Positions 48,634 to 50,407 of a stretch of 64,000 nucleotides of DNA are shown piece after piece. Both the position numbers and the translations under genes were made by a program. Under the pieces are notes generated by a model. The model was not told where the DNA came from, ran no database searches, and saw only the letters and a program-made list of their open reading frames with translations. The stretch lies in NCBI GenBank assembly GCA_943788815.1, contig CALSRS010000001.1, forward strand, positions 744,001-808,000. Direction: 5' to 3'. Source of the stretch: an uncultured Gammaproteobacteria bacterium. Its GTDB lineage: Bacteria > Pseudomonadota > Gammaproteobacteria > Eutrophobiales > Eutrophobiaceae. Every line of letters begins with the position of its first letter. Position 1 is the first letter of the stretch.

Positions 48634-49626
48634 ATGGACCAAACAGATGCCTTTCAAAAATTATCACATGACGATATTCTCAATGCCATAGATGCAGCTG
48701 GATATCGATGTAGCGGTCACATTTATCCATTAAACAGTTATGAAAACCGTGTCTACCAGGTTGGATTGGAAGATGCGAATAATGTTATTGCAAAATTTTA
48801 CAGACCCGGCAGGTGGAGCGATGATGCAATCATCGAGGAGCATAATTTTACTACCCACCTGAGCACGGAAGATATACCGGTAATCTCACCGTTATTATTT
48901 ACAGACAAAACCAGTCTTAAACACACAGATCGTTTCAGATACGCTTTATACGAGAGTGTGGGTGGACGAACACCAGAACTGGATAATCCTGGCCACTTAA
49001 AAATGTTAGGCAGGACCCTTGCCCGCATCCATAATTTTGGAGAAACTCAGCAATTCGTCCACAGACGCACACTAAACATTACCGAGTTTGCAGATGATAG
49101 CTGCACCTTTCTACTGGAAAATAATTTTATTCCCCAGGACTTGCTACCGGCTTATGAATCACTCATTGGTGATGTTATCAGCAGGATTAAACAATGTTTT
49201 AGCGATACAGGACAAGTAAATTTCATAAGGATTCACGGTGATTTTCATCTGGGAAATATACTTTGGCGCGACGATACCCCTTTTGTAGTTGATTTTGACG
49301 ACACTATGATGGGACCCGTAGTTCAGGATATCTGGATGCTGTTATCTGGTGACTATGAATACATGACGGCGAGGTTAAATGACGTACTTGAAGGCTATAA
49401 CGAATTTCGGGATTTTAATCCCGTTGAGCTAAATCTAATTGAAGCACTCCGGTCTTTACGTATTATTCACTACGCGGGATGGATTGCAAAACGCTGGGAA
49501 GATCCAGCATTTCCATTTGCTTTTCCCTGGTTTAATACACAACGTTACTGGCAGGATCATATCTTGAACCTTCGAGAACAAATCGCTGCAATGGAAGAGC
49601 CTGCATTAATCTGGCACCGTAGCTGA
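48634..49626 (+). CDS. srkA: stress response kinase SrkA (YihE/RdoA)
   Basis: A 330-residue aminoglycoside-phosphotransferase-like Ser/Thr kinase. Family marks are LNSYENRVYQVGLEDANNVI, catalytic IRIHGDFHLGNILW and metal-binding VVDFDDTMMGPVVQD, with FAFPWFNTQRYW near the end. In E. coli it limits MazEF-related death under stress. Its last 21 bases overlap the convergent lexA-like gene. Confidence 0.93.
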   Translation: MDQTDAFQKLSHDDILNAIDAAGYRCSGHIYPLNSYENRVYQVGLEDANNVIAKFYRPGRWSDDAIIEEHNFTTHLSTEDIPVISPLLFTDKTSLKHTDRFRYALYESVGGRTPELDNPGHLKMLGRTLARIHNFGETQQFVHRRTLNITEFADDSCTFLLENNFIPQDLLPAYESLIGDVISRIKQCFSDTGQVNFIRIHGDFHLGNILWRDDTPFVVDFDDTMMGPVVQDIWMLLSGDYEYMTARLNDVLEGYNEFRDFNPVELNLIEALRSLRIIHYAGWIAKRWEDPAFPFAFPWFNTQRYWQDHILNLREQIAAMEEPALIWHRS

Positions 49627-50220
49627 TTCATAAAGCCGTACCTGGCCTGTTACAACACCTTGAATATGCACGCGACTCGATGGATATATCATTGATGTCA
49701 TGGAAGGATTATCTGCCACCAGCTCTATCATATCGCCATGTTTCTTAAGGCGTTTTAATGTTGCTTCTTCGTTATCAATCAGGGCAAGAACAATATCTCC
49801 ATTTTTAACAATCTGGGTCTTTTTAACCACAATGAGATCACCATTGAGGATACCAGCATCAATCATGGCATTACCTTTGACTTTGAGCACAAACCTGTCC
49901 GGTCCCAGTAGCAATTCGGAGAAATTCACTTCATTATCTTCTGTGGCCTTCTCTATGGCCCTGCCTGATGAGAAATTGCCTTTTAAGGGTAGGATAGTCA
50001 GACTTTGGCGGTTTTTAGGGGTGAGTTTTATATCACGCCAACCTTTGCCCGTGCGACGCAGATATTTTTTTTTCTTTAAGGACTCGACATACCGATGCAC
50101 CGTCCCTTTGGATTTAATATCCAGGCTTTCGCCAATTTCTCGCAAGGTAGGCCCATGCCCCGTCTTAGTAACATATTCCGTAATGACGTCGAGTATCTTT
50201 TGCTCCAGCCTGGTTAACAT
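49606..50220 (-). CDS. LexA paralogue with lost self-cleavage residues
   Basis: A 204-residue LexA-type repressor: N-terminal winged helix (TGHGPTLREIGESLDIKSKG, recognition segment SKGTVHRYVESL) and a LexA/S24-fold C-terminal domain. The catalytic Ser normally in GDSM is Ala here: VKGNAMIDAGILNGD, codon GCC. The scissile Ala-Gly is replaced by Ser-Gly (GNFSSGRAIE). The general-base Lys is kept in EATLKRLKKHG. Family knowledge says such a protein cannot self-cleave with RecA, so it should be a permanent repressor or regulated some other way. The recognition segment S-K-x3-H-R resembles alphaproteobacterial LexA. A GTTC-N7-GTTC site lies upstream. Confidence 0.9.
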   Translation of the reverse strand: MLTRLEQKILDVITEYVTKTGHGPTLREIGESLDIKSKGTVHRYVESLKKKKYLRRTGKGWRDIKLTPKNRQSLTILPLKGNFSSGRAIEKATEDNEVNFSELLLGPDRFVLKVKGNAMIDAGILNGDLIVVKKTQIVKNGDIVLALIDNEEATLKRLKKHGDMIELVADNPSMTSMIYPSSRVHIQGVVTGQVRLYESATVPD

Positions 50221-50253
50221 AATGTTCTCCTAAATTTCTCCTTCAAGAATAGA

Positions 50254-50268
50254 GAACAAAAAGAGAAC
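50254..50268 (-). promoter_or_regulatory. GTTC-N7-GTTC operator (alphaproteobacterial-type SOS box)
   Basis: On the minus strand GTTCTCTTTTTGTTC is an exact GTTC-N7-GTTC direct repeat, the LexA-binding motif known from Alphaproteobacteria. It is 34 bp upstream of the LexA-paralogue ATG and about 140 bp before the divergent cigR-like gene, so it could autoregulate and control both. Confidence 0.65.
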
Positions 50269-50407
50269 ATTCAAGGCTTATTATAGAATGCATCAAAATT
50301 ATCTAACTATAATTCATGGATATTTCACAATTTATTAAGTTATTTCCAAATTAACGTTATTTGTCACTTATAATTTATACCCATCAACAAACCAAAGGAA
50401 TAGATAC

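Follow-up and report, generated by a model that had tools for sequence, protein, structure and literature searches.

What does a bacterium do with a LexA repressor that appears unable to cut itself, and which genes does such a repressor still control? The question is raised by a lexA gene in a stretch of 64,000 nucleotides (hereafter the window), the features of which are collected in Table 1. LexA is the textbook self-cleaving switch, and the product of this gene belongs to the family by every measure we applied. Its open reading frame matches the NCBIfam lexA equivalog TIGR00498 over residues 2-195 with 155.4 bits, where a full-length match above the cut-off of 110.95 bits marks a protein as LexA; PF01726 (LexA winged-helix DNA-binding) and PF00717 (S24) are both above their cut-offs; and its nearest solved relatives in structure comparison are LexA proteins, the E. 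coli LexA structures 1jhf and 1jhh belonging to the best fold matches. Around the cleavage loop (residues 70-102) the confidence of the structure model is low, and we have therefore taken no catalytic geometry from it.

Table 1. Positions of the lexA features in the window and, in the last line, of the polymerase-promoter element elsewhere in genome G000.
Feature	Position	Strand	Remark
lexA, 204 aa, predicted catalytically dead	49606..50220	-	genome's only LexA
Codon 118, GCC (Ala), equivalent of E. coli Ser119	49867..49869	-	from alignment
Codons 85-86, TCA-GGC (Ser-Gly), at scissile Ala-Gly position	49963..49968	-	from alignment
Codon 156, catalytic Lys, kept	49753..49755	-	from alignment
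Recognition segment SKGTVHRYV, residues 37-45	50086..50112	-	near-invariant in clade, alphaproteobacterial-like (SKSGIHRL)
Putative operator O1, GTTCTCTTTTTGTTCTC	50252..50268	-	fills 17-bp spacer of lexA promoter; exact copy unique in genome
Putative operator O2, GTTCTCCTAAATTTCTC	50224..50240	+	inverted copy, one mismatch; overlaps ribosome-binding site
-35 element of lexA promoter, TTGAAT	50269..50274	-	TTGAAA in many relatives
-10 element of lexA promoter, TATTCT	50246..50251	-	from promoter alignment
Polymerase-promoter near-palindrome	G000:C3:20307-20326 (L213:1501-1520)		genus-specific

A first-pass annotation of the window had described this protein as a LexA with an altered peptidase, and the details that it could read from the sequence of the protein were all correct: the catalytic Ser is replaced by Ala (Ala118, codon GCC, corresponding to E. 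coli Ser119), the scissile Ala-Gly pair has become Ser85-Gly86, Lys156 has been kept, and the S-K-x3-H-R segment of the DNA-binding domain is present as SKGTVHRY at residues 37-44. E. coli LexA depends on both Ser119 and Lys156 (Slilaty and Little 1987, cited by PMC3091678 and PMC7567884), and lexA3, the G85D mutant, is non-inducible in that species (PMC6363387). The combination of Ala118 with Ser85-Gly86 supports the annotation's prediction that the window LexA would be incapable of self-cleavage.

Is it, then, a second LexA? The same annotation had taken the protein for a paralogue, a second and permanent repressor acting beside a normal LexA on a set of genes apart from the normal SOS regulon. 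A dead catalytic site and a distinct operator type would suit such a role, and in two relatives (G012 and G023) a canonical LexA is indeed accompanied by a degenerate one. However, when the protein itself, a LexA model and an S24 peptidase model were used to search the window genome (3.23 Mb in 3 contigs, 99.2% complete), no further LexA-like protein came up, the one other S24 match (17.7 bits) being below cut-off; no second LexA match was found in genus members G001, G002 or G003; and no separate set of target genes emerged. The gene is instead syntenic with, and orthologous to, the LexA of the family, most members of which have an intact Ala-Gly pair and Ser, and it adjoins a kinase-like gene in G001, G002 and G003 as well. 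We conclude that it is the ordinary, single, vertically inherited LexA of its lineage, and we give hardly any credence to a second LexA with a gene set of its own. The nearest records that bear a name are MAGs labelled Ectothiorhodospiraceae and Granulosicoccaceae, which point to an uncultured gammaproteobacterium. The word "permanent" fits the protein, although the only target that we could identify for it is its own promoter. As a separate observation, an additional LexA of the E. coli type, its cleavage residues intact, occurs in some family members (G035, at L375:626-1861; G012, at L370; G023, at L372), and that of G035 adjoins an imuA-like gene.

When the comparison was widened, the window LexA proved to be one of several that have departed from the cleavage consensus. 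In a sample of 22 LexAs taken from named genomes beyond the family set, all retain the Ala-Gly pair, the Ser and the Lys, whereas six LexAs from two genera, that of the window and its sister, form one clade (support 96/91) in which every member deviates. The window LexA has Ser-Gly and Ala, as described; its closest relative has Ser-Gly with Thr for Ser, so that the Ala is not conserved there even though the Ser is likewise missing; the other two LexA-bearing members of the genus have an Ala-Lys scissile pair and have kept Ser; and in the sister genus one protein has Glu-Ala-Gly with Thr (G012) and the other Glu-Glu-Gly with Ser (G025). Within the clade, therefore, Ser has become Thr or Ala in three proteins, the scissile Gly has become Lys in two and the Ala has become Glu in one. 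A seventh, outlying LexA (G023) has Asn-Gly, Ala for Ser and Arg for the catalytic Lys. From these residues the loss of cleavage can safely be predicted for the Ala and Ala-Lys forms and is likely for the Thr forms, for Thr at the Ser position might preserve some activity while Ala cannot. Sequencing error is an unlikely source of Ala118, given that the closest relative, 88% identical, has Thr (ACT) and Ser-Gly too. The lexA of G025 (L023) encodes its catalytic Ser by AGC, whereas the other Ser codons in the family are TCN and the Thr codon of its sister genome is ACC, which hints at loss by way of Thr followed by regain. The relatives thus keep intermediate states of the dismantling of a switch, from intact LexA with a controlled polymerase, through loss of the scissile bond, loss of Ser and loss of the polymerase or change of its promoter, to loss of lexA, and such a series lets one ask how a global stress circuit comes apart and why an unswitchable repressor stays.

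Which DNA does the protein recognize? The exact GTTC-N7-GTTC site that had been reported upstream of lexA is present (50254-50268, minus strand), and with the SKxxxHR segment it supports the proposal of a GTTC-N7-GTTC-type LexA system, both marks of that type, the segment and an operator at the gene's own promoter, being found here. That eight-base pattern alone is uninformative because it occurs 51 times in the genome, below the 67 occurrences of its reversed control. The extended form GTTCTC-N5-GTTCTC occurs exactly once (0.39 expected by chance), and in nearly all relatives, whether their LexA is dead or intact, the same element lies between the -35 and -10 elements of lexA. It is this exact position in the spacer and its retention that lead us to judge the operator real. 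A second copy, O2, had escaped the first-pass annotation; the promoters of relatives likewise combine a TTGAAA-like -35 and a TATTCT-like -10 with an inverted second operator over the ribosome-binding site. Within the genus, the operator stands out as a footprint amid otherwise weakly alignable DNA upstream of lexA. The recognition segment (S[KR]GT[VIL]HRY) is nearly identical across dead and intact LexAs of the family and resembles the alphaproteobacterial SKSGIHRL. The notion that an alphaproteobacterial-type box had been imported into this one genome was rejected, as the box is clade-wide. LexA most likely binds O1 and O2 and represses its own gene.

The relatives with intact LexA indicate what else the repressor once controlled. 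Each genome has from none to three exact operators, the one exception being a tandem array in G018 (G018:C1:1837519-1837876; L091, L102) with an apparent 33-bp period and ten exact matches, which is probably a coding repeat in a genome that lacks a LexA match. In relatives with intact LexA the second exact operator, besides that at lexA, occupies the promoter spacer of a gene for a Y-family polymerase resembling models of DNA polymerase IV, and most of these relatives have the polymerase linked to LexA. An exact or near-exact box precedes this gene in ten genomes (G009, G010, G011, G020, G021, G022, G024, G030, G032 and G036), and elsewhere the polymerase directly follows lexA (G006 and G014) or follows it after a small toxin-antitoxin-like pair (G013). 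The G013 locus (G013:C10; L301:3071-5720), where lexA, a RelE/HigBA-like toxin-antitoxin pair and the polymerase are co-directional, has an operon-like arrangement. In G022 an exact 17-bp operator also precedes a gene for a small membrane protein, with an ImmA/IrrE-type metallopeptidase gene next in line (G022:C7; L290:713-1695), so that this intact relative may have a third LexA target. None of the genomes examined, intact relatives included, has a box at the recA promoter. With recA lacking the box, and boxes found at lexA and the polymerase and only rarely elsewhere, the ancestral regulon would have been small, comprising lexA and the translesion polymerase.

The window's genus has departed even from this arrangement. 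The same polymerase is encoded in G000 (G000:C3:20412), G001, G002 and G003, and in all four of these polymerase-bearing genomes its promoter is without the GTTCTC box; the polymerase thus appears to have left LexA control. An SOS regulator would be expected to have an operator before damage genes besides lexA, and in the window genome there is no box at either recA or the Y-family polymerase; being annotated as LexA on a score above the equivalog cut-off does not, then, imply an SOS response. The sister genus (G012, 84% complete, and G025, 87% complete) and G023 yielded no polymerase of this type. Overall, the LexA-linked polymerase is kept in 13 of 15 genomes with intact LexA and in none of the seven with eroded LexA (Fisher p = 0.0002, a value to be read against the number of independent events that connect the loss of cleavage with the decoupling of the polymerase, approximately two, the clade of six and G023). 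The exceptions are G007, which has intact LexA and no LexA-linked polymerase, and G005, which likewise has none of that type.

How might these observations be connected? The explanation that we favor, and consider rather probable as a whole, is that the window LexA is a non-inducible, self-repressing protein uncoupled from SOS, the polymerase having been decoupled before the cleavage residues were lost. An ancestral, clade-wide LexA would have bound GTTCTC direct repeats and repressed both itself and the polymerase. Among the ancestors of the window's genus the polymerase would then have escaped from LexA, and within the genus its promoter would have gained a palindrome for another factor; searches of the sister genus turned up no such polymerase. 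With inducibility no longer required, the scissile bond and catalytic Ser could change, and the dead LexA dimer would now sit permanently on the two operators of its promoter, holding its own level constant and giving no cleavage response to RecA. Both the order of these events and the insensitivity to DNA damage are what we infer from the distribution of residues and boxes among the relatives. A more specific version, in which the SOS circuit was dismantled, LexA was kept as a non-inducible self-repressor for a new role and the polymerase was captured by a different, palindrome-binding regulator, we hold more tentatively and think somewhat less probable than its negation.

Any explanation has to account for the selection acting on the gene. 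For the pair formed by the window LexA and its closest relative, neither of which has the Ser, pN is 0.077 and pS 0.81, values like those of intact pairs; pN/pS is thus about 0.1, with synonymous sites near saturation, and the C-terminal domain of this dead pair is constrained at least as much as the N-terminal domain. By this measure the window lexA is under strong purifying selection and is not decaying. The view that lexA is a relic heading for loss can point to G004, a member of the same genus listed as 100% complete, in which recA is kept and no match to LexA or to a Y-family polymerase was found, but the low pN/pS and the conservation of the operators as footprints make it improbable for the window gene.

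That selection is so strong when the only detectable target is lexA itself suggests missed targets or partners; weak targets, control by modification as proposed for Synechocystis (PMC7567884) or binding to the RecA filament could each explain it. A dead LexA that had gained a regulon of non-SOS genes by way of degenerate sites, itself under the control of a modification or a ligand, would be under the kind of selection we see, equal in both domains to that on cleavable relatives, and the LexA of Synechocystis provides a precedent (PMC7567884, PMC4759255). Yet a pattern search allowing up to two mismatches, which weak sites would escape, found no intergenic site outside lexA common to the window genome and its closest relative; the near-operators with one or two mismatches are inside coding sequence or at positions not common to the genomes, and the sites with one mismatch in G000 number 8 against 10 in the control. 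We consider such a regulon unlikely, if still the most serious competitor. A LexA acting mainly as a ligand of the RecA filament, dampening RecA activity while autorepression merely sets its dose, has in its favor that the non-cleavable LexA(G85D) of E. coli competes for activated RecA, to which it binds (PMC6363387), and that RecA is encoded in the window genome; we nevertheless rate this as very improbable.

How does this LexA compare with known systems? A LexA without the Ala-Gly bond and Ser is already known as a kind: that of Synechocystis sp. PCC 6803 has Gly-Gly and Asp at the cleavage positions (PMC3091678), is believed to govern no SOS response (PMC3091678, PMC7567884), and has targets connected with salt stress and with further processes, phosphorylation being proposed in place of cleavage (PMC7567884, PMC4759255). 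The Synechocystis protein is a cyanobacterial LexA over many non-SOS genes, whereas the window LexA is of the GTTC type with Ser-Gly and Ala, has no detected regulon, and is accompanied by conserved autoregulatory operators and a polymerase with a changed promoter; the two are of independent origin. The E. coli lexA3 (G85D) and S119A proteins (PDB 1jhf, 1jhh) are similar in being DNA-binding LexAs incapable of self-cleavage, as is predicted here, but those are laboratory mutants, while here the change is evolutionarily fixed across a genus. With alphaproteobacterial LexA the window protein shares the SKxxxHR segment and the GTTC-N7-GTTC operator (PMC9578287, Table 1); it differs in belonging to a gammaproteobacterial clade of its own, in its length (approximately 200 aa versus approximately 230), in an operator extended to GTTCTC and in a regulon reduced to lexA and the Y-family polymerase. 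In the part of the literature that we covered, we came across no description of a gammaproteobacterial lineage whose only LexA has lost these residues while its autoregulatory operators were retained and the promoter of the polymerase changed.

The promoter of the polymerase offers the last comparison. In the four polymerase-bearing genomes of the genus it contains a near-palindrome, AGGTGGTnnnAATRCCACTTGC (in another rendering CAGGTGGYnnnAATRCCACTTGC), that overlaps the -35 region, and the DNA farther upstream is unrelated among the four. Francisella FddR, a cleavable phage-type S24 repressor, binds the palindrome GTG-N11-CAC (PMC13148647); in this gammaproteobacterium, which has no working LexA, it forms a small network that regulates itself and adjoins a translesion polymerase. 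The situation is like the one described here, where the spacing is GTG-N10-CAC. Unlike Francisella, the window genome encodes no such S24 protein, LexA being its only S24 repressor, and the binder of the palindrome must therefore be something else; no conserved regulator was found among the neighbors of the polymerase gene. Further sites matching the palindrome are at background level with the exception of one in G001 (G001:C17:39402-39421; L225:1501-1520), a second copy with one mismatch and similar flanks that is situated by small unrelated genes.
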